Source of the DNA: Holophagae bacterium
Lineage (GTDB): Bacteria > Acidobacteriota > Holophagae > Acanthopleuribacterales > Acanthopleuribacteraceae
DNA length: 64,000 nucleotides
NCBI GenBank assembly: GCA_029263455.1
Contig: JAJCXM010000004.1
Coordinates: 372,001-436,000 of the forward strand
Direction of reading: 5' to 3'
In this document: positions 3,565 to 43,193 of the stretch, in pieces
Layout: every line of letters starts with the position of its first letter
Numbering within the stretch: the stretch's first letter is position 1
Notes under the pieces: generated by a model
The model's database searches: none
The model's input: the letters and a program-made list of their open reading frames with translations, nothing else
What the model was told of the DNA's origin: nothing
Translations under genes and position numbers: made by a program

Positions 3565-6132
3565 TTAGAATTCGTACTTCAAGCGGCCATAGTAGAAACC
3601 ACCATTGAAGCCGAAAGGCGTGAATTGGCTGTAAAGGTTGCCCACACCCGAACGAGCGCCGGCATTTTCGGTTGGGAAAGTGTCAAATAAATTCTGAGCA
3701 CCTAACACAAACGTAACCTTCTTATTCCAGGTATAGCCTAACTCGGTGTCAACGATGTATTCACCGCCATAAGATGCGCCATCTTCAGAATCGAACCAAC
3801 CGTCAAAGAAGCTCAGGCGGCCCATGACACGAAAGCCATCACCTATTTTTTGGTTAGCGCTAAGGTTCCAGCGGTTTTCGGGCAAGGCTTCTTGTAACTC
3901 TCGAATGCGTGTGGCATCAAGGGTATCTGGGTTAAATTGCTTAACATCCGTTTCTGTATGGTTAAAGACCAAACTGAAATTGGTTCGGCCTGCTGCGGCT
4001 ACCGGATTATAGGTCGCCACTAGGTCGATACCAGAAGTTTCGGTTTCGAAATCGTTGGTAAAGAAACGGAAATTGGACAGGTTAGCTGCGCTGGTAACGC
4101 CTTCAGCAAGCAGACTATCCACTTCATCAGGTGTCAACTCAAACAACTGAGTGACGGCCAAGCGATCATCCAGATTGATATTGAAATAATCCATTGTCAC
4201 GGTGAACGGGCCGTTATCATAAACGGCTCCCAGCGTGTAGTTCACTGACTTTTCAGCTTTCAGCGGCTTACCACCGCGAAGCTCTGCCACTCGAGATGAG
4301 GAAGGAATGGTTCCATTATTAACCAGCTCCATCAACACCAAGTCGAACTCGGTCGAGACATTGAATGCGTTCGATTGGCCGGGTGTCGGAGCCCTAAAAC
4401 CAGTGCTCACACTCCCACGCCCCATAAAAAGATCATTGAATCTGAAGCCGGCGGCTATTTTGCCGTTCAGCGTGGTGCCAAAATCTTCAAAGTCTTCGAA
4501 GCGAAGTGCTAGTCCAGTTGTCAGGCGGTCACTGTGATACTCCAGGTCGCCATACACGGCATAGTTACTACGGCTCCAATCGCCAGCAGCTAGGTCGCCA
4601 AATCCAGGGAAGCCGTTAGAAGCGGCACTGAATCCTTGCTCAGCCAAAGGACCAATTTGATAGGAGGCTAGATCGCCAATCCCAATCTCAAATTTTTCAT
4701 CACGATACTCGACACCACCCGCCACGTTAAGGTTAGCGTTGAACGCGTATGAGACGTCAAAGTTAAGGTTTAATTCTTCTTGGGAATACAGGCCCGGGTC
4801 AAAGGCTGTGGGTGAGTCAGGACCCAGCGAAGCATTCACCGTATTGGTAATAAAGAAATCAACTTCGTTGGACCCAGTACTTACGCTAAAGTCCCACGCC
4901 AAACCAGAATCGGCAATGCCCTTAATGCCAGCAACCACAGAGTAGTCCACCACGTCGCCACCAAAATTGGGTGTGAATCCACCAGGAAACACTTCCTGGA
5001 ACGAAAAACAGTCCGGATTGGCCATAACTTCAGCCAATGCGATTGGATCAGGCACGCCATTAACGATCATGACGGTTGGGCAATCACCGGATCCATCTAA
5101 TACGCCATCCCGTGCGTCAACCATGTCACCGATCAATAATGTCTCACCACCGTCACCACTAAATACGGCTGCACGGGTGTTGGGATTACGGAAGTAGAAT
5201 CCACCGGTGACTGTTTTTGTGGCGTAATTCGTTTGGGCATATAGTTTGTTTCCGCCACTTAGCTCGACACCAAAATTACCCCACAGTTTGAGGTCATCTT
5301 CGATTTCGGGTGAGCCCCAAATTTGGGCCGGATCACGAACATTCGTATTACCTGCCGCGATCAAGAATGCCGCATCATCACGCTGCACACTGCGGTCGGT
5401 TGGATCCGTCTGACCATATTCAAAAGTAATATTCGCATAACCATTAGCGGTCAACGGTAAACCAAAATTTCCACTAATTGTATTGGCGCTACCGTCGCCT
5501 TCGAAATAGGAACCTGACTTCAATTCGACACTAGAACCAGAGCGATTCTCTTTCAAAAGGAAGTTCATCACACCAGCAATGGCGTCCGAGCCGTACTGAG
5601 CCGAAGCGCCATCACGAAGAACTTCAACTTGGCGAAGGGCCACTGAAGGGATCGCCGATATGTCCGGGCCCTGTGCGCCATCTGCTACGCCGTTACCCAA
5701 CCAGTAGATAACCGCCGCGCGATGGCGGCGTTTGCCGTTTATGAGGACCAAGCTATGGTCTGGAGCCATGCCACGTAAATTGACAGGACGAACAACGGTC
5801 GCCGCGTCACTAATGGGCTGAGAATTCACATTAAAAGATGGAACCAATGTTCGCAATTGATTACTAAGGTCTGTATCACCCATTTTTACAAAATCTTCGA
5901 CGCCGATGACATCAATGGGAACCATCGACTCCGTGGCCGATCGTGGTTGTGCGCGACTACCGGTCACGACGAATGTTTCATAGATGGCCGTATCTTCTTT
6001 AGCCTTCTCATCGCCTTCAGTAGCCGTTGTCTCGGTTGTTTCCTGCGCCATCAGCACGGTCGTTGACAGCAGGAGTAAAGGGCAGATCAATGCCATGACC
6101 CATAATCGACTTCTTAAACTATTCCAACTCAT
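3565..6132 (-). CDS. TonB-dependent outer-membrane receptor
   Basis: An 855-residue outer-membrane receptor for active uptake of a substrate that cannot be named from sequence. It starts with a signal peptide (to about residue 30, ending near VLMAQE). A plug domain follows at about 50-190 with the landmarks VNLRGMAPDHSLVLINGKR, VEVLRDGASAQYGSDAIAG and VMNFLLKE, then a long beta-barrel ending in aromatic YEF, the usual BAM recognition end. The TonB box is not obvious; IYETFVVTG around residue 50 is the likely site. The ATG at 6132 was chosen because AAGGAG lies 8 nt upstream and it opens the signal peptide; longer in-frame starts have neither. It is monocistronic with its own terminator and is divergent from a metal-cation exporter, which makes a metal or metal-chelate ligand plausible but unproven. 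Confidence 0.93.
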   Translation of the reverse strand: MSWNSLRSRLWVMALICPLLLLSTTVLMAQETTETTATEGDEKAKEDTAIYETFVVTGSRAQPRSATESMVPIDVIGVEDFVKMGDTDLSNQLRTLVPSFNVNSQPISDAATVVRPVNLRGMAPDHSLVLINGKRRHRAAVIYWLGNGVADGAQGPDISAIPSVALRQVEVLRDGASAQYGSDAIAGVMNFLLKENRSGSSVELKSGSYFEGDGSANTISGNFGLPLTANGYANITFEYGQTDPTDRSVQRDDAAFLIAAGNTNVRDPAQIWGSPEIEDDLKLWGNFGVELSGGNKLYAQTNYATKTVTGGFYFRNPNTRAAVFSGDGGETLLIGDMVDARDGVLDGSGDCPTVMIVNGVPDPIALAEVMANPDCFSFQEVFPGGFTPNFGGDVVDYSVVAGIKGIADSGLAWDFSVSTGSNEVDFFITNTVNASLGPDSPTAFDPGLYSQEELNLNFDVSYAFNANLNVAGGVEYRDEKFEIGIGDLASYQIGPLAEQGFSAASNGFPGFGDLAAGDWSRSNYAVYGDLEYHSDRLTTGLALRFEDFEDFGTTLNGKIAAGFRFNDLFMGRGSVSTGFRAPTPGQSNAFNVSTEFDLVLMELVNNGTIPSSSRVAELRGGKPLKAEKSVNYTLGAVYDNGPFTVTMDYFNINLDDRLAVTQLFELTPDEVDSLLAEGVTSAANLSNFRFFTNDFETETSGIDLVATYNPVAAAGRTNFSLVFNHTETDVKQFNPDTLDATRIRELQEALPENRWNLSANQKIGDGFRVMGRLSFFDGWFDSEDGASYGGEYIVDTELGYTWNKKVTFVLGAQNLFDTFPTENAGARSGVGNLYSQFTPFGFNGGFYYGRLKYEF

Positions 6133-6617
6133 GTAGCTCTCCTTTTTTAACCTATTCCTCGCGTTATCAGTTTCCCTGCGTCTCCATAAACTGAGGTCGT
6201 ATGTTTTGAACTGCCATACAGCGCCGTGATCCATGAATGAATATTTCTTGATTTCTTTTCATTAAACAAAAAAACGTTACGGCCACAACTACAATTTGGT
6301 TGTTGCAAAGTTGCCTGCATGCAGATTCGGACCTTTTCTTTTCTAAGATGTTATGAGAATTGTAGAGGATAAATATGTAAATAGACACAAAATGTCGATT
6401 TACATCTGTTTACATCCCCAAATACAGAATCCAAGTGCCCTGGCCGGGGCCATGCGGAATCGGGTTAGAATCCTTTGAATGGAGCGCAACGGACAATTCC
6501 TTTCCATAAATCGCAGAACCGATTAGCGACTTTCGGCTGTTCTCGCTTAACATGTATAGGTACCGCAATATCGCACCTTGTGGTCCGCTACTCAAAGAAA
6601 ATTAAGGATAATTAAAA
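6133..6617. promoter_or_regulatory. 485-bp divergent control region with TTTACAT sites
   Basis: This gap between the TonB receptor and the CDF transporter holds no convincing gene. It contains a perfect inverted repeat ATGTAAAT (6375-6382) and ATTTACAT (6398-6405), with a further direct TTTACAT at 6409-6415, giving three copies of one heptamer within 41 bp. This spacing suggests a regulator binding site serving one or both divergent genes. No clear sigma-70 box pair could be fixed. Confidence 0.4.
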
Positions 6618-7622
6618 ATGGCCACTGGTTCCACAACAGCCGTATACAGCGCGATCATCGGCAACTCGATCGTCATGTGTGCCAAATTCATTGCATTTTT
6701 CGCCACCGGTTCCAGCTCCATGTTGTCTGAGGGTATCCACTCATTTGCCGATGTCTCAAATCAAGCTCTGTTGGCCGTGGGTATCAAACGGTCCGGGAAA
6801 AAAGCGGATAAACGCCATCCTTATGGCTATGTAAGAGAACGGTACATCTGGGCATTGGTATCCGCCGTTGGCATCTTTTTCCTCGGTTGTGGCGTGACTA
6901 TCTATCATGGCATTCACACCTTAATTGAACCTAGAGAACTGGACGACCTAACGCTCGCGTTCTGGGTCTTAGCCTTTGCGTTTGTAGTTGAAGGCGCAAC
7001 CTTGATCCTTGCGATTGTGGCTGTCAATAACGAGGCCGTTAAATCCAAGCAATCATTTATGGAGTATATTCGTCAGGGCTCTGACCCAACGGGTATTGCC
7101 GTCGTACTGGAAGACGGAGTTGCCGTAATTGGGGTATTGGTGGCAGCAGCAGGCCTATATTTGACCCACGTAACCAAAAACAGTACCTGGGACGCAATTG
7201 CAACTCTAATCATTGGGTCACTGCTTGGACTAGTCGCCATTTATCTCACCTATAGAACCAAAGCTCTTCTTGTTGGGCAAGCTATCCCGCTCGTCAGCCG
7301 TCGGCGAATCGTTCAGATTCTGAAAGGCGACCCGATCGTTGATCGTATTTATGACATCAAAACCGCCATCATGGGCGTCGACGATCAACGCTTCAAAGCT
7401 GAGGTTGAATTTGATGGAGCGAAAGTTGCCGAAAAGGCACTTGACCGACAAGAGTTGCATGACTTTTTTGAAAAGGTGACCACACAGGAAGCGTTGCAAA
7501 CGTTCCTAATCGACTACGGAGACTCAGTCATAGAAACGCTGGGTGACGAGATCGACCGCATTGAGGATTTGATCAAAAAGGAACTACCACAACTCAAACA
7601 CATCGATATCGAGGTGAACTAG
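6618..7622 (+). CDS. Cation diffusion facilitator (CDF) metal transporter
   Basis: A 334-residue inner-membrane protein of the CDF family, which exchange protons for Zn2+, Fe2+, Mn2+ or similar cations, usually for export. About six membrane segments span residues 8-215, followed by a cytosolic C-terminal domain. The metal site is visible as the H41/D45 pair in GIHSFADVSNQ (TM2) and as D156 with the E165-D166 pair in TM5. The long TM3-TM4 region and the overall pattern are closest to the SLC30A9-like branch of CDF proteins, an impression rather than a tested assignment. The start has AAGGA about 10 nt upstream. It is followed 60 bp later by a kinase gene on the same strand and lies opposite a TonB receptor. 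Confidence 0.9.
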   Translation: MATGSTTAVYSAIIGNSIVMCAKFIAFFATGSSSMLSEGIHSFADVSNQALLAVGIKRSGKKADKRHPYGYVRERYIWALVSAVGIFFLGCGVTIYHGIHTLIEPRELDDLTLAFWVLAFAFVVEGATLILAIVAVNNEAVKSKQSFMEYIRQGSDPTGIAVVLEDGVAVIGVLVAAAGLYLTHVTKNSTWDAIATLIIGSLLGLVAIYLTYRTKALLVGQAIPLVSRRRIVQILKGDPIVDRIYDIKTAIMGVDDQRFKAEVEFDGAKVAEKALDRQELHDFFEKVTTQEALQTFLIDYGDSVIETLGDEIDRIEDLIKKELPQLKHIDIEVN

Positions 7623-10163: not shown

Positions 10164-10706
10164 CTAATGTTCAGCTCGCGTGAATCGTTGATGGTTGCCT
10201 GGTTTCCAGGTTTTGCCATCATCGTCGGTCACATCCATCTTCGATTCGAACCCGTTTTCGGTGACATTGAACCTAGTAAAGCGCAATTGGCTGTCTTTAC
10301 CATCGTGCGTTTTGAACGTCTGCGTATAGCGTACTTCCTCACCTAGAGGGCCAGTCATGATCCACAAATTACCGTCCTGGCCGACCGACACCATCTCCAT
10401 AATCGCTTTACTTTCATTGATATAAAACAAAATGCCCGATTTCATGTTTAGAGCTGGCGTATCAGCGACACCAGACAGCACTCTATCTTCAATCACCCAT
10501 TCAAACGTATATGTGCCGGCCACGCTGCGAGCCACGGTGCCATCGCTATTGAGGAAATCGGTTGTAACAAACCATTTTCCTTGAGCATCACGGAGCTGCT
10601 GAATGGAGGCTTCTAACAGGGTCTTGTTGTCCAACTTCTTTGCTTGGTCTTGTCCATGCACCGACACCGTCAGACTCATCACTAACAGCCATTTCATCGT
10701 GGTCAT
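10164..10706 (-). CDS. Small secreted protein, DUF1579-like
   Basis: A 180-residue exported protein with a signal peptide (MTTMKWLLVMSLTVSVHG, cleavage near residue 18). The mature part has the alternating strand pattern and the G-x-W ... TYTFEWVIEDRVLSG ... DGNLWIMTGP spacing seen in DUF1579-type lipocalin-like proteins, whose function is unknown. The ATG at 10706 is preferred because GAGGTGA sits 6 nt upstream; the GTG further upstream overlaps that ribosome site. A strong hairpin lies 31 nt upstream of the start. No partner gene is evident. Confidence 0.65.
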   Translation of the reverse strand: MTTMKWLLVMSLTVSVHGQDQAKKLDNKTLLEASIQQLRDAQGKWFVTTDFLNSDGTVARSVAGTYTFEWVIEDRVLSGVADTPALNMKSGILFYINESKAIMEMVSVGQDGNLWIMTGPLGEEVRYTQTFKTHDGKDSQLRFTRFNVTENGFESKMDVTDDDGKTWKPGNHQRFTRAEH

Positions 10707-11023
10707 AAGAATCACCTCATTTCTTAGCTATTCTTAACCAACCCAAGGCGGGTTGGTCATTTGGTTGCATAATGGATGTACGCGTTAAGCAGGCATTGGT
10801 TGATTAATTTACCAAAGCCAATTGGATTCAAATGCATCGCAATGACACAGAACGTCATTACATCCATATCTGCGTAGCTGCCAAATATACGGGGTTAGCC
10901 ACTCAACCAAACTGAGTCATCGTGACGGATAACCCACAAAAGAGACCATATTTTGCTTTGAACCACCTAGTTCAGAACGGTATCCTGAAAATCGTTCGAA
11001 TTCAGAAATCGAGGCTACCCTCC
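10707..11023. other. 317-bp gap with a strong hairpin
   Basis: This region lies between a minus-strand secreted-protein gene and a plus-strand VOC gene. It holds one clear structure: an 8-bp perfect stem ACCAACCC (10737-10744) and GGGTTGGT (10750-10757) with a 5-nt loop. On the minus strand it would lie in the leader of the secreted-protein mRNA. It lacks a T-run in either direction, so it is not a standard terminator. No other feature was recognised. Confidence 0.45.
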
Positions 11024-11449
11024 ATGAAAACGCCAGCTATTAAGGATGTCAAAACCTTTATCCCATGTGGGCCCAAAGGCCAAGAGGAGTCGATCGCGTT
11101 CTACAAAGATCTAGGGTTCCATTTGCTATGGGGCGGTAGCGAAGGGGCCGTCTGCGAGTTTGATACAGGCTACGGTCACCGATTCTTACTTCTCGAGAAA
11201 TACAACAATGCACTCAGCGAGAACCTGATGCTGCAGATCTGGGTCGAGAACCTTGATGATTGGCACACTTATCTCACTAGCATTGATCTGCCCAAAAAGT
11301 ACCCTACTGTTAAAGTTTCGCAACCCGAGGTTCAGCCATGGGGTTGGCGAATCATCTACATCTGGGACCCGGCTGGCGTACTCTGGCACATTGCGGAGCC
11401 GCATTCCCAGGAAAACAAGGACTATTTCAATCACGTCAGCTGGCTCTGA
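11024..11449 (+). CDS. VOC (glyoxalase/bleomycin-resistance fold) protein
   Basis: A 141-residue protein of the vicinal oxygen chelate superfamily. The pattern is DVKTFIPCGP at the first strand, SIAFYKDLGFHLLW (the classical helix plus strand), FLLLEKY, LQIWVENLDDWHTYL and the closing WGWRIIYIWDPAGVLWHIAEP. The last part ends with the usual metal-ligand Glu region. Members are lyases, dioxygenases or drug-binding proteins; the substrate cannot be read here. The ATG at 11024 fits the fold start. A GTG at 10922 would add 34 residues with no family match. Confidence 0.75.
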   Translation: MKTPAIKDVKTFIPCGPKGQEESIAFYKDLGFHLLWGGSEGAVCEFDTGYGHRFLLLEKYNNALSENLMLQIWVENLDDWHTYLTSIDLPKKYPTVKVSQPEVQPWGWRIIYIWDPAGVLWHIAEPHSQENKDYFNHVSWL

Positions 11450-11596
11450 ACTGGCTGGAGGTCCAATGCCAAACATGGTGACTTGGCTGCCAAATCGCTG
11501 GCCTTGTTGCCAAAGCCCAATTCACTTAGATCGGCACTATTAGCAAGTACGGTTCATAAACCGGCCCCACCATCGGTTTCAAAGCAACGCTATTCA

Positions 11597-12304
11597 TTAA
11601 CAACGGATGTTTTTGCGTTTTTTGCCAAGGCGACCCATGTCGATGACCTTTTTGATGTAAGCCGGTGCGTCAGGTACTTTGCAGGCTGTCTCGCCCATGT
11701 CTACACGCACCTTGCCGATATGTTTGGCCACAGCCATCGCCTTCTTGGACAACGCTTCGATGTAACATCCTACAGATATAACAAAACCGTTCATCGTGTA
11801 TCGAACTCTATTTGGTGACTCCTGCAAACTTGATTGAGCGCGGTCTAGCAATCCATCAATGGCAGCCAAATCCAACTGGTCATCTTCAAGATGTGCGACC
11901 ACGCCAGCTAAGGTTGACCAACCTGCACAGGCCACATGTTCCTTATCTGAATCGATCCATTTGAGCCCCATCTCAAAACCATGAGGTCCTTCAGCAGCCA
12001 CTCCAGCAACAGCATATTCGGTCACCATATACCATTGTGATTGGTGAGCCCATTGATCGAGTTCTAGCTCAGAGAAGGCTTGCGGGTCAGAAATCAAAGC
12101 TGCCAAATACATGGCATCACCGTTGCCCGTTTCAAATAATTGCAGCGCCAGGGCCTGATCCTTTTTGACCTTCTTGACGATCTTCTTCATATCGCCGACC
12201 TTCACACCAAAAAAATTGGCTGGCGCACCATGTCTCGACAAGATCTTACGTGTCTGCTCACTACCCATGGACTCAAGCTCGCTCATCACTTCGGCCAAAT
12301 TCAC
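11597..12304 (-). CDS. DNA alkylation repair-like HEAT-repeat protein (AlkD type)
   Basis: A 235-residue helical-repeat protein of the DNA alkylation repair enzyme family. The opening VNLAEVMSELESMGSEQTRKIL and the ending AYIKKVIDMGRLGKKRKNIRC are characteristic of one widespread branch, which also carries the KVRVDMGETACKVPDA segment seen at about 195-210. Characterised AlkD enzymes remove bulky or cationic lesions such as 7-methylguanine and 3-methyladenine. This branch differs from Bacillus AlkD, so glycosylase activity is not certain. The GTG at 12304 was chosen because AGGGGTG lies about 9 nt upstream and the family begins here. An ATG at 12340 gives 12 extra hydrophobic residues and no ribosome site. 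Confidence 0.78.
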   Translation of the reverse strand: MNLAEVMSELESMGSEQTRKILSRHGAPANFFGVKVGDMKKIVKKVKKDQALALQLFETGNGDAMYLAALISDPQAFSELELDQWAHQSQWYMVTEYAVAGVAAEGPHGFEMGLKWIDSDKEHVACAGWSTLAGVVAHLEDDQLDLAAIDGLLDRAQSSLQESPNRVRYTMNGFVISVGCYIEALSKKAMAVAKHIGKVRVDMGETACKVPDAPAYIKKVIDMGRLGKKRKNIRC

Positions 12305-19264: not shown

Positions 19265-19433
19265 GACAGTCACTCCTCTATTGGGTCCAATGGTCGAAAG
19301 CTCTGGCAAAACTAAATATATGTACGGATGACCCGCCCCATCCTAACATTGCCAAAGACCCCTAGCCAAGCTTGCAGATGGCCTTTGAAGTGATCAAAAA
19401 GGGCTGCCTGCTCTATTTACGCGCTTTGCTCTT

Positions 19434-20237
19434 TTATCTACGAAAAGTCCATTCATTGTTGCCATATTTAGATTCAACCAAGAGATTAATCTCCTCAGTA
19501 TCTAGCGCTATCTCCAGGGGTTTCATTTGCACCTCAAAACTCGCCTCGAATGCAGATGCAAACGCCTGCTTCAAGGTAGTAATCGTCGGCATACTCTGTT
19601 CTTGCTGCTGGTACAAATCTTCGAGCGTCGCCATGTATTCACGCATATTGAGACTGGTTCTCGTCAGCTCTTGGAGTTGGGCTGCATGATCAAAAAGCGG
19701 GATGCTGCCATGTTGCAGGAAGGCGCCTCGACCAACTTTCTGAGAACTGCCTATCAATTTTCGCGTTCCTTCTTGGATTTCTTGATCCGAGATCGACGCA
19801 AAACAGGGTAGAGCTCCGCGCACAAGGTCGCGATTTTGCGGTTGAGCCCCAGCCGCGTGAGTATGTGGGGCGATAGATTGGCTAAACCGAGCTAGTGCAT
19901 GACCGATCGTCCGGTAATTATCGGCAATTGACTGGCTGAACGGATGGCTGGTAGGCGCAACCAGCGAGTAGGTTAACTCTCGATCATGGAGAACTGCCCG
20001 ACCTCCGGTTAAACGTCGTACCACGTCTGTCCCCAACCGCTTGGCAGCTTCCAGGTCTACTGCTCGCTGCCAGCGCTGATGGTAGCCGAGACTCAACGTT
20101 GGCCTGCTCCACTGGTAAAGCCGTAGAACAGGCCTATCCAAACCAGCTTGCTCCAGCTGGTTTAGCAGATAGTGATCGACAGCCATATTGAGCGCGCCAT
20201 CAAGCGGCTCCTGGTCAAGTAAGAACCATGAATTCAC
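19434..20237 (-). CDS. lipM: Lipoyl/octanoyl transferase, LipM-like
   Basis: A 267-residue protein of the BPL/LplA/LipB fold. Landmarks are LRLYQWSRPTLSLGYHQ at about 38-54, VVRRLTGGRAVLHDRELTYSL at about 72-92 (acyl/adenylate loop), LPCFASISDQEI around 143-154 and GSSQKVGRGAFLQHGSIPL at about 163-181. The Cys in PCFAS lies where LipM octanoyltransferases hold their acyl-thioester nucleophile, and there is no LplA C-terminal accessory domain. Octanoyl transfer from ACP to a lipoyl domain is therefore the likely reaction. The start is 4 bp downstream of the alanine dehydrogenase stop codon, implying co-transcription with ald and the bactofilin gene. Confidence 0.82.
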   Translation of the reverse strand: MNSWFLLDQEPLDGALNMAVDHYLLNQLEQAGLDRPVLRLYQWSRPTLSLGYHQRWQRAVDLEAAKRLGTDVVRRLTGGRAVLHDRELTYSLVAPTSHPFSQSIADNYRTIGHALARFSQSIAPHTHAAGAQPQNRDLVRGALPCFASISDQEIQEGTRKLIGSSQKVGRGAFLQHGSIPLFDHAAQLQELTRTSLNMREYMATLEDLYQQQEQSMPTITTLKQAFASAFEASFEVQMKPLEIALDTEEINLLVESKYGNNEWTFRR

Positions 20238-30829: not shown

Positions 30830-31591
30830 ATGGAGCCGACGCTTCCCACCGAACCGCCCCCTCGTTATGACGCCCAGCAAACATGGTCTGAAACCAGTGC
30901 ATTGCCGGTTGGACCTGAGCCGCCGATCGAGGATCCTCAATATCAAGGCAACGCCATCGCAGCAGTTGTCACCACGGCGAAGCGCATCCTTTTCGATCCC
31001 AAAAACTTCTTTTCATCCTTACATGAGGAACGATCTGCCACATCCGCCGTCATCTGGGCGCTCACCATCATGTGCCTTAGCCAATTGCTGGCATTGCTCG
31101 TGGGGTTGGTGATATTTCAGCTGTTCCCACAACCGGACTACAGCGAAATGTTCAGAGAACTGTTCGAGCAATTCAATATTGACGCCGATATTGACTCGCT
31201 GATGCCCTTAATTGATCCCAGCAGTCCAGGCTTCTTTTTGGCACGTGTCATCACAATCCCAGTAACGACGATCATGAGCTTCTTTGTTTCAGTATTGATT
31301 TACTACCTGGCTGCCTATATCTGGAAATCATTTAAGCCTCGTTTCAGCACCTTCATCCGTGTCTACGCTTTTGCACAAACGCCAATTATTTTTGGCTGGG
31401 TGCCTTACCTGAACATTATCTTTGTCGTTTGGTCTATGGTCTTATTTGGGATGGGTCTGGTTTACTGCGGAAAATCGACGCCAGGCCGTGCGGTAGGCAC
31501 CGTTTTGACGCCCCTCGTTTTCTGTTGTGCCTGTGCATGTGCTGCGATGGTCGTCGCAATAGCCATCGGCGGCATAGCAGCGTCAGGCTGA
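30830..31591 (+). CDS. YIP1-family membrane protein
   Basis: A 253-residue inner-membrane protein. The first 60 residues are Pro-rich and cytosolic (PTEPPPRYDAQQTW), then a segment TAKRILFDPKNFFSSL typical of the bacterial YIP1 domain start, followed by about five membrane helices (roughly 75-98, 130-160, 178-198, 200-220, 228-250). The function of bacterial YIP1 proteins is unknown. The ribosome site AAGGAG lies 5-6 nt before the ATG. The stop overlaps the next start in TGATG, so it is coupled to the DUF2752 gene. Confidence 0.78.
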   Translation: MEPTLPTEPPPRYDAQQTWSETSALPVGPEPPIEDPQYQGNAIAAVVTTAKRILFDPKNFFSSLHEERSATSAVIWALTIMCLSQLLALLVGLVIFQLFPQPDYSEMFRELFEQFNIDADIDSLMPLIDPSSPGFFLARVITIPVTTIMSFFVSVLIYYLAAYIWKSFKPRFSTFIRVYAFAQTPIIFGWVPYLNIIFVVWSMVLFGMGLVYCGKSTPGRAVGTVLTPLVFCCACACAAMVVAIAIGGIAASG

Positions 31592-32004
31592 TGATCGCCG
31601 CGATATTGGAATTCAGACCCCGGCCACGCTGGGATTTCCCAAGTGGTCATGTGTATTTGACTCTGCTCGTAGCGGGACTACTGGCCATCCGATTGTTACA
31701 AGGAAACACAGGATTGGTTTGCCCATTAAAAAGCATCGCAGGCATTCCATGTTTGACTTGCGGTTCCACGCGAGCCCTTTTTCATATCAGCCATTTTGAG
31801 TTCCTAAGCGCACTTCAATTAAATCCAGGCATGGTCTTGTTTGGTCTGCTGTTAACTGTCTATTTCGGCCTCGATTTGGTGGCCTTTCACAAGAAATTGA
31901 AACCCGTCGTCAAAACCGAATGGGCCAGTCGGCCATTGTTGGTGTCTTTGGTACTACTTGGATTGATATTGAATTGGGCGTACCTAATCACAACCGGAGT
32001 TTAG
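31591..32004 (+). CDS. DUF2752 membrane protein
   Basis: A 137-residue membrane protein with three hydrophobic segments (about 22-38, 72-92, 112-132). The DUF2752 signature is CPLKSIAGIPCLTCGSTRALFHI at about 43-66, with three conserved Cys (43, 53, 56) and the G-x-T-R. The Cys cluster may bind a metal or form disulfides; no member has a firmly known role to me. Translation restarts on the TGATG overlap with the YIP1 gene, and the next gene begins 10 bp after its stop codon, so this is one operon. Confidence 0.85.
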   Translation: MIAAILEFRPRPRWDFPSGHVYLTLLVAGLLAIRLLQGNTGLVCPLKSIAGIPCLTCGSTRALFHISHFEFLSALQLNPGMVLFGLLLTVYFGLDLVAFHKKLKPVVKTEWASRPLLVSLVLLGLILNWAYLITTGV

Positions 32005-32014
32005 CAAGACAAAT

Positions 32015-33709
32015 ATGACATTCTTGTGTCTAATCCTCACTTTTTTCACATCCGCGCAAGTGGATTACACGGAAAACTATAGTCGTGATCGTTTTCAAGG
32101 TACAGATGAGCCTACCCAGATACGCGCGGACTTCGAGATCCAGAAATCGGGCTTTGTCGCCCTGTCAATTGATCCGTGGTGTACGCCACAGTTAGTGGGT
32201 TATCGCGTTCACGGTCCTGTCAAGAACTGGCGCATTAAAGACGAACATACACCGGCAGTTGGGGACCTCAACGGCCTCATTACCTCAATTACAGAATACG
32301 CTACCAGTGATCGAGAAAAAGCTGAGCTTATATATTATTTTGTGGTTGAGGAAATGAGAGACTGGTATTTTCCAGCCCAAGGAATAGACCTTACCGTCGA
32401 GGACCTCAACGTCTTGATTTGGGGTTTTGGATATGGGTTTTGCTACGACCTGAGCCGATTGATGGTGGGCTTATGGGATCGTGCTGGTTTGCGGGGACGA
32501 ATCGTTGCCTGGCCAAGACACACGCTTGCCGAAGTTTATTACGACGGCGATTGGCACATGTACGACGCGCAACACCGCATGTTTTACTTGAATGAACAGA
32601 ATCAGGTAGCCAGTTTCGCGCTGTTGAAAACCAACCCTTCAATCTTGGCTCAACAATTGGATGCAGTTGGCCATGACCCCATTGGCTACCCGCCCGAATA
32701 TTTGGCAACAGTATTTCAACAAGCAGATCCCAGTTATGCTGATTCCGTCAACGGGCCAAGTTGGAAGGACACCCACTCCTATTCGCTTAACCTGCGCGAA
32801 AACGAATGGTTCGATATTGTTTACACCGAACCAGCCATTATTTATCACCCTGATTCTTGGGCCCAATTCTACGGCGAGATGACCCTGCGAAAAGAACCTC
32901 CTTGGCCTGTTTTGGGTCGACAACAATTCCGACCGGAGGATAAGCGGGCATGGCAGTCAACCACGTCTCCCGAAGGCGCCGATGCCTTGGCACTCAACAT
33001 GGAGTCGCCATTCATTTTCACTGAGGGTTGGATCACGATTCCCAACCTGACCGCAAAAGCTAGGTTCTGGATTGAAGTTTGGGGACAAACGACCCTCGTC
33101 GGTCAATTTGAGGCTGGCAAGGCCCTTTTCTCCAAACAAATTGCCGGTTGCAACACATTTAAGGTAATTGTTGAGAACAACCCACAGTCCCCTATTGATG
33201 TGTCACAAACTCAAATTGAGACGCGGCTGCAAATAAGCCACATAGGCGTTCCCAAGCTTCGACCTGGACTAAACCAAGTACAGGCTCAGTTCGAATCCGG
33301 AAATCCTAGTTTAAGCTTGTGGTACCTCGCCGATGCGCCAGATCTTAGAATAGACGGATTTCGCTGTGTACCCGAGCGACCAAAGAACAAACAAGTTTGC
33401 CAACTAATCTATCGCATACGTAATCGTGGATCCGGTCAGAGTCCCGCTACCACACTAAATGTCTTTAACAACACAACAGCGTTACGCGCCGAAACCATCG
33501 AAAAAGTTGGCACTGCCCACATACCACCATTAGAGCCAGGAGGCCAAGCCGAAGTGACTGTTTATTGGGAAGCCAATCAACGGATGACTTGGTACAAACA
33601 AGATCCTCATGCTCAGATTATCGATGCCTGGATTGACATCGAGAAGAATAGCCCCGACTGCAATCGTGATAATAACCGCCGCCAAGATCACGTGCTACTT
33701 CTTCCATAA
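32015..33709 (+). CDS. Secreted transglutaminase-fold protein with CARDB-like domain, paralogue 1
   Basis: A 564-residue exported protein: signal peptide MTFLCLILTFFTSAQ (cleavage near 15). A papain/transglutaminase-like core is at about 75-195, with FVVEEMRDW, GFGYGFCYDLSRLMVGLWDRAGLRGRI (nucleophile Cys143), RHTLAEVYYDGDWHMYDAQHR (His169 and Asp184). This Cys-His-Asp order and spacing is that of the transglutaminase-core superfamily, which includes cross-linkers, peptidases and amidases. Residues 200-430 are beta-rich with no recognised family. Residues 440-560 resemble a CARDB/Ig-like domain (YRIRNRGSGQSPATTLNVFNNT ... PPLEPGGQAEVTVYWE). A close paralogue follows 197 bp downstream. The substrate is unknown; envelope protein or peptide processing is inference. 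Confidence 0.78.
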   Translation: MTFLCLILTFFTSAQVDYTENYSRDRFQGTDEPTQIRADFEIQKSGFVALSIDPWCTPQLVGYRVHGPVKNWRIKDEHTPAVGDLNGLITSITEYATSDREKAELIYYFVVEEMRDWYFPAQGIDLTVEDLNVLIWGFGYGFCYDLSRLMVGLWDRAGLRGRIVAWPRHTLAEVYYDGDWHMYDAQHRMFYLNEQNQVASFALLKTNPSILAQQLDAVGHDPIGYPPEYLATVFQQADPSYADSVNGPSWKDTHSYSLNLRENEWFDIVYTEPAIIYHPDSWAQFYGEMTLRKEPPWPVLGRQQFRPEDKRAWQSTTSPEGADALALNMESPFIFTEGWITIPNLTAKARFWIEVWGQTTLVGQFEAGKALFSKQIAGCNTFKVIVENNPQSPIDVSQTQIETRLQISHIGVPKLRPGLNQVQAQFESGNPSLSLWYLADAPDLRIDGFRCVPERPKNKQVCQLIYRIRNRGSGQSPATTLNVFNNTTALRAETIEKVGTAHIPPLEPGGQAEVTVYWEANQRMTWYKQDPHAQIIDAWIDIEKNSPDCNRDNNRRQDHVLLLP

Positions 33710-33758
33710 AGAGTGTGTCTTGGTTTGGCGAAACAGAATGTGTCGCTGTGTACAGCTA

Positions 33759-33783
33759 CACTGACATGGTTATGGAGTCAGTG
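33759..33783. other. Perfect hairpin between the two paralogues
   Basis: CACTGAC (33759-33765) and GTCAGTG (33777-33783) form a 7-bp perfect stem with an 11-nt loop, 50 bp after the first paralogue and 124 bp before the second. On the plus strand it is followed by AAAAA, not T, so it is a weak terminator at best; it may tune relative expression or serve as an operator. Confidence 0.4.
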
Positions 33784-33906
33784 AAAAACTGGCAATTGAC
33801 GGCCCACAAATTACGGATAAATGATTTAAACCAAGCACGTTAACTGAATAGGCACGAGATTTGGACTAGCCCTCGCCATACGAATTTGTTTCAGGGGAGT
33901 CCATTC

Positions 33907-35625
33907 ATGTCAGCTACATTGATCATTCTATGCCTATTGGTTCCAAACCAAGATCAAGCTTCCATACGCCAACACGATTATCCAAATGCGAACGAACGAG
34001 GCTGCAACAGAGCCGACATACGCCTCTCAAGTCCCGGTCACATTCAGCTTGACCTTGATCCGTCATGCACGCCTCAATTTGTGTGCTACCGAGTGATGGG
34101 ACCAGTTGTTGGCTGGACCATTCAATCAGAAGGGGAACCTGCCGTTGGTGACTTAAATGCCTTGGTGCAACATTTAACAGCCGGCAGCCGCAGTGAGCGC
34201 GAACGTGCCGAACGCCTATTTGAATTTGTCGTAAACGACATGCGCGACTGGTTCTACCCGGCTCAGGGAATTGATCTAACGGTCGAAGACCTTGGCGCGC
34301 TTATTTGGAACTTTGGCTACGGATTTTGCTACGACCTAGGCCGCCTGCAAGCTGGACTTTGGCATTTGGCCGGTCTCCGTTCGCGCATTGTCGGTTGGCC
34401 TCAGCACACACTAGCAGAGGTGTACTACGAAGGGTCGTGGCACCTATACGATTTGCAACATCGTAACTATTATTTGAATTCGAGCGGTGATGTAGCTGGT
34501 TTCGATGAAATCAAACTGAACCCTGGATTGCTTAATCAAAAGCTGGATACATTTGGTCTAGATCCAATAGGCTATCCGCCGGAACACTTAGTTCATTGGT
34601 ACAAAATTGCGCAGCCGAAATTCGAAGACAGCGAGCAAGGCCCACACTGGAAAACAGACAAATCATTCACGATGGATTTGCGTTTTGGCGAGTTTTTTGA
34701 AGTTGTCTATTCGGAGCCCGTTGTTGCCTATCACCCCGACTCCTGGACGCAATACTATGGCGAAAAGACCTTGCGCAAAGATCCGCCCTGGCTCGTCCAA
34801 GGCCGTTTAACCTATGCCCCTAATTATTTGAAATCGCCGGCCAAGTGGATCGCCACAGAAACACCGGCTGGTACACCTGGTTATCGGATTAGGATGAAAT
34901 CCCCGTTCATTTTTACCGAGGGGTGGATAAAGATTCCGGACCATACATCGTTTGATCGAATATGGGTTGACGTATGGGAGCAGAGTCACTTTGTTGGTCG
35001 GTTGGTCGGCGGCAATGCCATCTTCTCTAAATTAATAGAAGGATCCAATCAATTTGACGTTATTGTCGAGGCCGATGACATCGATCAAATATCACGTTGC
35101 GCCATCGAAACTCGTCTTCAAATGAGTCATATTGGACTGCCTAAAATAGCGCCCGGTTCAAATCAGATACCGGTTTCATTCCGCATTGGTAGGCCGCACG
35201 TGACTCTTTGGTATTTGGAAGACGCGCCTGACCTGCAAATCGTTCAATTTTCTTGCGCTCCAGCCAAGCCTTCGGCAGGTGAACTTGTGCAAATCTCGTA
35301 TCAAGTTGAGAATAAGGGGTCTGGAAAGAGTCCGGCCAGCACATTGACTGTTTTCAACAACACGACCTCGTTCTTATCGGAAACCACAGAACGCGTCGGC
35401 ATCGCCAGTATCCCACCGTTGAACCCGGGCCAAAAAGTGACCGTTGAGCTTGTTTGGGAGGCCAACACGCGCATGACTTGGTACGGCCAAGACCCTCATG
35501 TTCAGCTCTTTGACGCTTGGATAGATTTTGAACACGACTTGGCAGATGCCGATCGGGAAAACAATCGGCGACAGAATTATCTGCGCTTAAACAACGCCGA
35601 TCTCAAGCTCCCTGCACCTCGATAA
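33907..35625 (+). CDS. Secreted transglutaminase-fold protein with CARDB-like domain, paralogue 2
   Basis: A 572-residue paralogue of the preceding gene, collinear over its entire length. The core repeats the same landmarks: FVVNDMRDWFYPAQGIDLTVEDL, GYGFCYDLGRLQAGLW (Cys141), PQHTLAEVYY (His167) and LYDLQHR (Asp182). The middle region shares YHPDSWxQxYGExTLRKxPPW and ESPFIFTEGWI-like blocks, and the CARDB-like end shares NRRQ. Identity looks above 50 percent by eye. The signal peptide (to about residue 18) is much less conserved. The ATG at 33907 is preferred because AGGGGAG lies 8 nt upstream; the TTG at 33886 has none. The pair looks like an old tandem duplication kept under selection, with both triads intact. 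Confidence 0.78.
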   Translation: MSATLIILCLLVPNQDQASIRQHDYPNANERGCNRADIRLSSPGHIQLDLDPSCTPQFVCYRVMGPVVGWTIQSEGEPAVGDLNALVQHLTAGSRSERERAERLFEFVVNDMRDWFYPAQGIDLTVEDLGALIWNFGYGFCYDLGRLQAGLWHLAGLRSRIVGWPQHTLAEVYYEGSWHLYDLQHRNYYLNSSGDVAGFDEIKLNPGLLNQKLDTFGLDPIGYPPEHLVHWYKIAQPKFEDSEQGPHWKTDKSFTMDLRFGEFFEVVYSEPVVAYHPDSWTQYYGEKTLRKDPPWLVQGRLTYAPNYLKSPAKWIATETPAGTPGYRIRMKSPFIFTEGWIKIPDHTSFDRIWVDVWEQSHFVGRLVGGNAIFSKLIEGSNQFDVIVEADDIDQISRCAIETRLQMSHIGLPKIAPGSNQIPVSFRIGRPHVTLWYLEDAPDLQIVQFSCAPAKPSAGELVQISYQVENKGSGKSPASTLTVFNNTTSFLSETTERVGIASIPPLNPGQKVTVELVWEANTRMTWYGQDPHVQLFDAWIDFEHDLADADRENNRRQNYLRLNNADLKLPAPR

Positions 35626-35696
35626 AGCCAAGATCGGCAGCGCGTGGCGTCGCTTTTGTGATATAAGAATCCCGAACCAATCCAGGGAGTTCCGTC

Positions 35697-36452
35697 ATGC
35701 GCTTGTCGATTTGCATCTGTCTATTCACCTGTTCATTAATATTTGCGCAACCGCAAAGACGACAGGCATCTCCAATTGGCGTCACCTTAGCGCTAGACTA
35801 TCTCGACACCTATATGTTTCGCGGCAGAGTGCTAGATCCTGAAGCCTCGTACCAAATTGACCTGACACTGGGTCTAGGATCGTGGAGCTACAATATTTTT
35901 CACCACTCTGGTTCCGATCAACTAAATGCGTTGATCGAGTTCGAAAAATTTGAGGAGTTCACTCACGCTATCGAATACACGGCGATCCGCGGCAACGCCA
36001 TAACAACCACGGGTTATCGGCTATACAACTACACAGGCGGTGATGTTCCCGACACGCAAGAGATCTCTTTCCGTATTGCCCATCAATCATCATGGCACCC
36101 GGCCTATGGCGTCGCTTACGATTTTGATGCTTATCGAGGAACCTACTTTGACTTTTCTTTGTCAAAAGGATTCCCGCTGTCTCGCAGGTCACGCCTCAAC
36201 TTTGACTTTGGCTTGGGACTATCGACAGGCATGGAGGAAAAATCCAACAGACAGGGCCAAATCCTAGAATATGGTCCCTATTCAGAAGAGCTCAATCACG
36301 GATCTGTCGCCGCGTCATACCATTGGTCTGTTACCAACCGACTTTCTATCCATGCTGACTATGATTATCACCATGCATTCGACGACAAGCTAAAAATGAA
36401 CAGTGAGCACAACGATTTTTGGACGCTAGGCTTTACGCTGCTACTACCTTAA
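35697..36452 (+). CDS. Probable outer-membrane beta-barrel protein
   Basis: A 251-residue exported protein with signal peptide MRLSICICLFTCSLIFAQ. The remainder alternates polar and hydrophobic residues in strand-like runs (GVTLALDYLDTYMFRG, YQIDLTLGLGSWSYNIF, RLNFDFGLGLSTG, RLSIHADYDYHHAF) and ends WTLGFTLLLP, consistent with about ten transmembrane strands. The LDYLDTYMFRG start resembles small porin-like proteins such as the TIGR02001 group. The ligand is unknown. The 3' end overlaps the convergent isoprenoid-kinase-like gene by 20 bp. It closes a plus-strand run of envelope genes. Confidence 0.65.
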   Translation: MRLSICICLFTCSLIFAQPQRRQASPIGVTLALDYLDTYMFRGRVLDPEASYQIDLTLGLGSWSYNIFHHSGSDQLNALIEFEKFEEFTHAIEYTAIRGNAITTTGYRLYNYTGGDVPDTQEISFRIAHQSSWHPAYGVAYDFDAYRGTYFDFSLSKGFPLSRRSRLNFDFGLGLSTGMEEKSNRQGQILEYGPYSEELNHGSVAASYHWSVTNRLSIHADYDYHHAFDDKLKMNSEHNDFWTLGFTLLLP

Positions 36453-40685: not shown

Positions 40686-43193
40686 ATGAGACGCGCGAAG
40701 ATTCTCGTGGCCGATTATGATGACAAAAGTCTGGCTAACATTGATGAAGCCCTACGCCAAGCGGGTTATACGACAGTGCTTGTGCGAAATGGCGGCGAAG
40801 CCATCGAACAGATTCAACATGAGAAACCCGACTTGTGCATTATTGACCCTATGTTACCTGGAATCAATGGTTTCACCGTTAGCCAAAAGGCAAGGAACTG
40901 GGATGCAAAACTGCCAATCATTATCTCGACGGCCGTTTACAAAGGCGATAAATATCAACGCGACGCCAAAACAAAATATGGGGTTTCTGCCTATTTGGAG
41001 AAACCCTACACCAACGAGCAGATGGTTAAGACTGTGGATGAATTAATTGCAAAGCGACCAAGCAACGCCAAACCTAATACGTTAGATGAATCGATGGAAC
41101 GCAAGCTGGGTTCCACACTGACTGAATTGGCTTCCCCAAAAAAGAAAAAGTCACGTCTGACGGTCGAAGCCAACGTCAATAGGTTACTCGAACACACGCT
41201 CAGTGGGATTGAGATTGGTGGTAAATCGCGCAAGGTCAGCGCGCCAAAAACAGTAGCACCCAAAGCGCCGCCAAGTAAAAAACCTCCTTTAGCCAGTAAA
41301 GTACCGAGTCAAAGTGACGACAGTGCGACCATGCGCGTGAGTGCTGAAGACCTCAAACGCGAAATGGAAAAGATCAAGCAAGATGCGCCTTTGAGTCAGG
41401 ACAGCCACAGACCTCAACAAGGCTTGTCTTCGATGACCCAACCCAATAAGACGTTAGAAGAGAAATTAACTAGCAGCGATATTTTCGGCGCACTGATCGA
41501 CGACATCGAAAGCTCAGAGCCACCCGCTGCACCCTCCAAGTCTGCGCCCACACCGGCGCGTCCTGTCGCAAATATCCCGGCAAAACCGGCGAGTGCGGTA
41601 CCGTCAACACCGAAAGTTCATGTCTCTCCACCTGTGATGGCACCCCCGCCACCGGCTGCGCCTGCCCCACGAACGCAAAAAAAACCGGCGCCCGTCGCCG
41701 CTCAAAAGCCAGCACCGCCGACCCCAGCCAAGAGTACCCCCCCCATTGACGGGCCCGCAACCAAGCGTCCGCGTCCAGAATTAAGTAAAACAAACGAATA
41801 TCAGTTGTTGTCGAAAATTGCTGCAGGCGGGATGGCGGAAGTATGGAAGGCGCGCTTAATTGGCGAAAAAGGCTTCGAAAAAATTGTCGCCATCAAAAAA
41901 ATTCTGCCTCATTTAAGTGATAACGATGAATTCATTACCATGTTCATTGACGAGGCAAAAGTAGCGGCAAACCTGACACATCCCAATATTGCGCAAATTT
42001 ATGAGCTCGGGAAAATGGGCCATTCGTTTTTCATTGCCATGGAATATGTGTCTGGCAACAACCTCAGAACCATCGTAAACCTGTGCAATGAACTTGGCGT
42101 CACCATGCCCCAAGAAATCGCCAGTTTCATAGGCATGAAACTGTGCTCAGCATTAAACTACGCACACACAAAGAAGGATTTTGGCAATCGCGATCTCAAT
42201 ATCGTGCATCGTGACATTTCGCCACAGAACATCCTGATCTCAAGCGAAGGTGAAATTAAACTGGTGGATTTTGGTATCGCCAAGGCATCCATCAAAGCTT
42301 CCCAGACGGTTGCCGGTTCACTCAAAGGCAAACTGCTGTATATGTCACCTGAACAGGCGGATGGCAACAAGATAGATTCCCGTTCAGATATTTTTAGCCT
42401 AGGTAACGTGATGTATGAGTGTCTAACGGGCAAAAAACTAATCGATGGCGACAGCGAGCTTTCGATCCTCAAGAATGTGCGTGATGCCAATTTCCCTAAA
42501 CCATCCAGTATCAACCACAAGATTTCGGCTGGCTTAGAAAGCATCATGCTGAAAGCTTTGGCCAAGGATGTAGACGAACGATTTTTCACGGCAAAAGACA
42601 TGGAGATTGAACTCAAAGACTTCATGAAGCAGGGCAAATATCACATTAATGAGTCCGATGTCGCCGACTTCATGAAGAGCTTGTTCGCAAGGGACATGAG
42701 TAAGCTCACGCAAACGGACAGTCGACGGCCCAAGACAGCCAGTTCTTCTAAACCGGCAGTGATTATGCCGGACACAGGCCAAGTACGCGCGCACCAACAA
42801 ATGAGCCCGGTTATGGCCAAAACTTCCAGTTCCGGGAACTCGAAGACGCTTCTCATCACGGTTGTGAGCCTTTCTTTGATCGCCATTGTCGCTGCGGCCT
42901 ATTTTTTCTGGCCTAAATTGAGTGCGAACCAATCTGCTCCTATTCAGGAACCCGACATAACGCAAGGTGTGCAGGAACAGCCTGATGCAATGACGGACCT
43001 ACCGGCAATCGATGAAGCGACTATCGAAAGCATCACACAAGAGGTAGCTGCGGAACAAGGCGATGACCCAAATGAGGAATTAAAGAGCGAATTGGAAGTG
43101 AAACGCGAACAACTCAGAAAACTGTATAAACAGCTGGGATACACCGAAGAACAAATCGAACAAGAACTCTCCAAGCTCAATGATTCTCAATAA
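40686..43193 (+). CDS. Response-regulator receiver fused to a Ser/Thr protein kinase
   Basis: An 835-residue hybrid. The receiver domain is at 4-125: acidic pair D12-D13, phospho-acceptor Asp54 in CIIDPMLPG and Lys106 in LEKPYT, all intact. A disordered Pro/Ala/Lys-rich linker fills about 130-370. The kinase domain covers about 371-640: IAAGGMAEVWKA, ATP lysine in VAIKKI, HRDISPQNIL and VDFGIAKA, then GKLLYMSPEQAD. The usual HRDLKPEN is HRDISPQN, a form seen in myxobacterial-type kinases and expected to be active. A membrane segment lies at about 720-742, leaving a short acidic, coiled-coil tail (LYKQLGYTEEQIEQEL) outside the cytoplasm. Aspartyl phosphorylation by an unlinked histidine kinase could therefore control Ser/Thr phosphorylation. 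Confidence 0.9.
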   Translation: MRRAKILVADYDDKSLANIDEALRQAGYTTVLVRNGGEAIEQIQHEKPDLCIIDPMLPGINGFTVSQKARNWDAKLPIIISTAVYKGDKYQRDAKTKYGVSAYLEKPYTNEQMVKTVDELIAKRPSNAKPNTLDESMERKLGSTLTELASPKKKKSRLTVEANVNRLLEHTLSGIEIGGKSRKVSAPKTVAPKAPPSKKPPLASKVPSQSDDSATMRVSAEDLKREMEKIKQDAPLSQDSHRPQQGLSSMTQPNKTLEEKLTSSDIFGALIDDIESSEPPAAPSKSAPTPARPVANIPAKPASAVPSTPKVHVSPPVMAPPPPAAPAPRTQKKPAPVAAQKPAPPTPAKSTPPIDGPATKRPRPELSKTNEYQLLSKIAAGGMAEVWKARLIGEKGFEKIVAIKKILPHLSDNDEFITMFIDEAKVAANLTHPNIAQIYELGKMGHSFFIAMEYVSGNNLRTIVNLCNELGVTMPQEIASFIGMKLCSALNYAHTKKDFGNRDLNIVHRDISPQNILISSEGEIKLVDFGIAKASIKASQTVAGSLKGKLLYMSPEQADGNKIDSRSDIFSLGNVMYECLTGKKLIDGDSELSILKNVRDANFPKPSSINHKISAGLESIMLKALAKDVDERFFTAKDMEIELKDFMKQGKYHINESDVADFMKSLFARDMSKLTQTDSRRPKTASSSKPAVIMPDTGQVRAHQQMSPVMAKTSSSGNSKTLLITVVSLSLIAIVAAAYFFWPKLSANQSAPIQEPDITQGVQEQPDAMTDLPAIDEATIESITQEVAAEQGDDPNEELKSELEVKREQLRKLYKQLGYTEEQIEQELSKLNDSQ

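Follow-up and report, generated by a model that had tools for sequence, protein, structure and literature searches.

Two putative exported transglutaminase-superfamily paralogues, probably an independent pair, between conserved envelope-type genes of a Holophagae bacterium

Five consecutive genes on one strand of a Holophagae bacterium genome raise the question of whether they form a single envelope system, in which membrane and barrel proteins serve two secreted enzymes, or whether the enzymes are an independent pair that lies among unrelated genes. The window, which is the whole stretch of 64,000 nucleotides analysed, corresponded to positions 372001–436000 of contig C4 in the source genome (G000; 6.2 Mb, 40 contigs). 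It was compared within a set of seven family genomes, composed of the source genome, one genome of the same genus (G001), and five others of the same family. All five plus-strand open reading frames described in an earlier, sequence-only reading were confirmed, and the two enzyme genes are called TG1 and TG2, after the transglutaminase (TG) superfamily. The features were as follows.

30830..31591, plus strand: YIP1-domain membrane protein, 253 aa (Pfam Yip1, E = 7.1e-11)
31591..32004, plus strand: DUF2752 small membrane protein, 137 aa (Pfam DUF2752, E = 2.7e-13)
32005..35696, plus strand: segment without a counterpart in the congener G001
32015..33709, plus strand: TG1, 564 aa, with a putative signal peptide, TG core, beta-sandwich region, and C-terminal CARDB
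32441..32443, plus strand: TGC codon for Cys143, the predicted nucleophile in TG1; the Cys is invariant in a six-sequence alignment
33907..35625, plus strand: TG2, paralogue of TG1 with CARDB, 572 aa from ATG 33907 (579 aa from TTG 33886)
35697..36452, plus strand: putative outer-membrane beta-barrel protein, 251 aa, found in 7/7 family genomes

The YIP1 and DUF2752 genes overlapped as TGATG, and this overlap and both membrane-protein assignments stood as previously described. The end of the DUF2752 gene was 10 bp from the start of TG1, and with this spacing co-transcription of the two genes in the source strain is possible. The end of TG2 was 71 bp from the barrel gene, and the spacing between TG1 and TG2 was 176–197 bp, set by which start of TG2 applies. 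ATG 33907 appeared to be a better start than TTG 33886 because it was preceded by a good ribosome-binding site, CAGGGGAG. Promoter- and terminator-like sites in the locus were no more frequent than in shuffled sequence, and the operon question was not decided by them.

TG1 and TG2 shared 52% identity over the whole length; by domain, the values were 60% (core), 50% (middle region), and 55% (CARDB). The triad was composed of Cys143, His169, and Asp184 in TG1, and of Cys141, His167, and Asp182 in TG2 (numbered from ATG 33907), in agreement with the nucleophile positions named earlier. CARDB (PF07705) formed the end of both proteins, with 33.2 bits (E = 6e-8) in TG1 and 41.8 bits (E = 1e-10) in TG2 against a Pfam cut-off of 22.7. 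Both proteins are probably exported, as judged by visual inspection of hydrophobic segments at their N-termini. With complete triads, CARDB matches above the cut-off, and probable export, the description of two secreted Cys-His-Asp paralogues with a CARDB-like end was upheld.

The scores of TG1 and TG2 against Pfam Transglut_core (PF01841) were 18.5 and 13.6 bits, respectively, both below the curated cut-off of 23, and further evidence was therefore needed for the TG assignment. Membership of the superfamily rests on a chain through a wider protein family, and membership of the curated PF01841 family is not claimed. In an alignment of six family sequences, made up of TG1, TG2, their orthologue from G001, and distant relatives from G000, G004, and G002 (three in all), Cys, His, and Asp were invariant in this order. 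All six also had DxQH at the Asp and, beyond it, a GxDxxGY motif. Distant single-copy TG-core proteins of 470–510 aa without CARDB (L008:7245-8657, L009:10962-12446, and L010:8801-10333) likewise had the DxQH and G-x-D-x-x-GY motifs in common, each in a different neighbourhood.

The wider family was reached when 396 Acidobacteriota genomes were searched with a profile; 28 of them gave matches, with very varied protein lengths. When the profile of TG1, TG2, and the G001 protein was aligned by hhalign with six wider proteins, a probability of 99.7% was obtained over 341 columns, spanning the start of the core to an ‘LPxLxPGxN’ motif ahead of CARDB, and a slightly different set gave the same result. 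A wider profile built without TG1 and TG2 recovered them at E = 1e-26 and E = 2e-22, respectively, and the triad was invariant in the six wider relatives. One wider relative, L034, scored 29.4 bits against Transglut_core, above the cut-off, and the chain is therefore connected to the Pfam family. By these alignments, TG1 and TG2 belong to a set of large Acidobacteriota TG-core proteins composed of a core, a beta-sandwich region (‘TMDxxLRPGE / SPY / LPxLxPGxN’), and a variable Ig-like C-terminal part; among the TG-core relatives, only those of this genus were found to end in CARDB. Nine further places in the source genome exceeded the Transglut_core cut-off, so TG-core proteins are not rare there.

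No meaningful match was obtained from PDB sequence searches with TG1, the family profile, or the wider profile, and no relatives of TG2 were found in plasmid, phage, and viral collections. A genome-collection scan with TG2 alone, using short search patterns by which relatives can be missed, gave no match. A profile scan, with a few short patterns of the same limitation, returned only three relatives already found. The matching public records were the metagenome-assembled Acidobacteria bacterium HKST-UBA04 for G001 and the MAGs MO_135.B14 and DOLJORAL78_46_51 for two further relatives.

The core-only AlphaFold2 model (pLDDT 73, pTM 0.73) was composed of helices followed by three strands, with the Cys in a helix and the His and Asp on the following strands, as in the TG fold. 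Its top six Foldseek matches all belonged to the TG superfamily (TGase 4xz7, cysteine protease 3isr, 3kd4, TgpA 6g49, TglA, and PNGase), at weak and individually non-significant E-values of 0.04–0.5. The full-length model was poor (pLDDT 56). Its best matches included transglutaminase 2 and factor XIII at E = 5e-7, with a TM-score of ~0.15 and ~9% identity, and GH2 beta-sandwich proteins scored nearly equal to these animal transglutaminases. Because the model was poor, the high rank of the animal enzymes is only suggestive.

The sequence-only reading had proposed the five genes as a candidate system and had named the absence of a conserved neighbourhood as grounds against it. In the neighbourhood search, the TG, DUF2752, YIP1, and barrel genes were not kept together in relatives. 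In G001, the YIP1, DUF2752, and barrel genes lay in a row (C58:303493-305451), with only ~31 bp between the DUF2752 and barrel genes. The window and G001 shared, in the same order and orientation, genes for Sir2, oxoprolinase, YIP1, DUF2752, the barrel, DUF92, an LptD-like protein, a 200-aa protein, a receiver-kinase, and an M23 peptidase, and within this collinear block of ~18 kb TG1 and TG2 were the only open reading frames without a counterpart. The single TG gene of G001, located by a search with TG2, was on contig C2, flanked by a gene for a TonB-type receptor and by a patatin-like gene. In the source genome, these two neighbours had their best matches on contig C8, 17 kb apart, with no TG gene between them. 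Distant TG relatives were present at three further places in the family, with different neighbours each time.

That the five genes form one envelope system, in which two cross-linking enzymes rely on the YIP1, DUF2752, and barrel proteins for presentation or export, has the gene layout in its favour: all five are on one strand at the short spacings given above, on either side of the TG pair, and all five products look envelope-type. Against it, the same three genes are contiguous in G001 without a TG gene, while the TG gene of G001 is alone elsewhere. G003, G005, and G006 have an adjacent YIP1–DUF2752 pair and a barrel gene 13–17 kb from it, and the search threshold returned no TG relative in them; G004 has a distant TG gene and a barrel gene with no YIP1 or DUF2752 match. 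The barrel gene, although present throughout the family, mostly occurred without a TG gene. The DUF2752 family was found in 168 of the 297 Acidobacteriota genomes sampled, so its place beside a TG gene says little. Because the sister species has the same gene run without the TG pair, a five-gene system is very improbable, and a presenting or exporting role of the membrane and barrel proteins finds no support. TG1 and TG2 are instead probably an independent exported TG-family pair. The clean comparison thus removes the candidate system, the sister species having an identical gene order with the enzymes absent. What is left is a branch of exported TG-superfamily enzymes that is small, unannotated, and under the Pfam threshold, and for it protease, deamidase, or cross-linker chemistry may be considered.

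The difference between the window and G001, the one congener compared, may reflect an insertion here or a loss in G001. A mobile element carrying the pair was considered and was not supported, as no transposase was present beside the genes and no flanking repeats were seen; insertion-marking repeats were not found in the three junction stretches, each checked within itself. The YIP1–DUF2752 pair was adjacent in five of the seven family genomes (the source genome, G001, G003, G005, and G006). The pair is not tied to TG genes, and of 30 loci examined outside the family with a profile of low sensitivity, only one had a Yip1 neighbour. No paper on DUF2752, alone or with transglutaminase, was found in the literature searched.

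The barrel protein of the window had no Pfam or PDB match, and its beta-barrel-like label is plausible from sequence character and conservation. Its G001 orthologue, directly after the DUF2752 gene, was 62–63% identical. Members of this family in the seven genomes shared invariant Y-x-D-x-Y and RG positions and a DxQE motif, belonged to no Pfam family, and in one case matched YaiO weakly (E = 0.011). In G003, G004, and G005, the barrel gene overlapped by 4 bases a SelB-like gene (selenocysteine elongation factor, named by eye), at L063:4959-5747 and 5744-7618, L064:18574-19416 and 19413-19901, and L066:9361-10167 and 10164-12035; in the window and G001, a convergent DUF92 gene followed in its place. 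Further along the window (40686-43193), one protein contained a receiver domain followed by a Ser/Thr protein kinase domain and was kept in G001, with 77% identity in the kinase part.

TG2 and the G001 TG were 56–59% identical, and TG1 and the G001 TG ~51%, while the orthologues of the collinear block were mostly 52–63% identical. The full-length tree grouped TG2 with the G001 TG and placed TG1 outside, with support of 98/98, which suggests that the duplication is older than the split of the two species; in the core-only tree the branching of the three was unresolved and the outgroups were long. Because both genes are intact at this divergence, both are probably under selection. The earlier impression that two related activities are maintained is likely to be right, as both triads are complete and TG2 and the G001 TG are as diverged as the orthologues of neighbouring genes, which are 55–63% identical.

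In the TG superfamily, an acyl-enzyme arises when a carboxamide reacts with a Cys thiolate that His and a third, polar residue have activated. Catalysis by TG1 and TG2, like their export, is something we infer. As an independent pair, TG1 and TG2 would be anciently duplicated exported thiol enzymes that, in no lineage but this one, lie between a conserved YIP1–DUF2752 pair and a conserved barrel gene, both unrelated to them. After Sec export, the Cys thiolate would attack a protein at the surface or in the environment, at the carboxamide of a peptide bond or of a Gln side chain. The resulting thioester would most likely be passed to water, and otherwise to an amine, and the enzymes may be held to the substrate or surface by their beta-sandwich and CARDB domains.

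The superfamily includes proteases, amidases, deamidases, and cross-linkers (PMC10318531), and because of this variety the acceptor is not readable from the triad. Hydrolysis of protein amides is tentatively favoured over cross-linking as the main activity, because protease or amidase names recur among the closest core matches. True transglutaminases, forming Gln-Lys isopeptides that stiffen a surface layer or an adhesive matrix in which CARDB would be the sticking part, would accord with the canonical triad, the CARDB end, and the animal enzymes among the best full-length matches, but that model is of low confidence, the matches of the core-only model differ in kind (putative proteases, TgpA, and PNGase), and the varied superfamily chemistry also counts against it, so this reading is unlikely. 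A PNGase-like amidase acting on glycoproteins or polysaccharide-linked amides, with a carbohydrate-binding beta-sandwich, is a decidedly doubtful alternative: the model's middle region is similar to GH2 beta-sandwich domains and PNGase is among the weak core matches, but the beta-sandwich matches are unspecific and no carbohydrate-degradation genes were recognised beside any copy. It is improbable that the pair represents an undescribed bacterial class of adhesive cross-linkers, in which the core, beta-sandwich, and CARDB together glue surface proteins and the paralogues differ in substrate.

Compared with known members of the Transglut_core superfamily, including TgpA (6g49) and the streptococcal TGases (4xz7 and TglA), TG1 and TG2 had the same order of triad residues and of predicted secondary structure, whereas they scored below the Pfam cut-off and carried added beta-sandwich and CARDB domains. 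TgpA is membrane-embedded, unlike TG1 and TG2. The animal transglutaminases, transglutaminase 2 and factor XIII, similarly have a TG core followed by beta domains; the match had a low TM-score and identity, and no sign of common regulation or Ca2+ sites was seen. The uncharacterised large Acidobacteriota TG-core proteins (e.g. L031, L032, L034–L036, and L040–L044) shared the core, the downstream region, and the invariant triad with TG1 and TG2. However, those scanned had fn3/Ig-like or unassigned C-terminal parts where TG1 and TG2 have CARDB, and they lacked the DxQH and GLDPIGY motifs of the pair.
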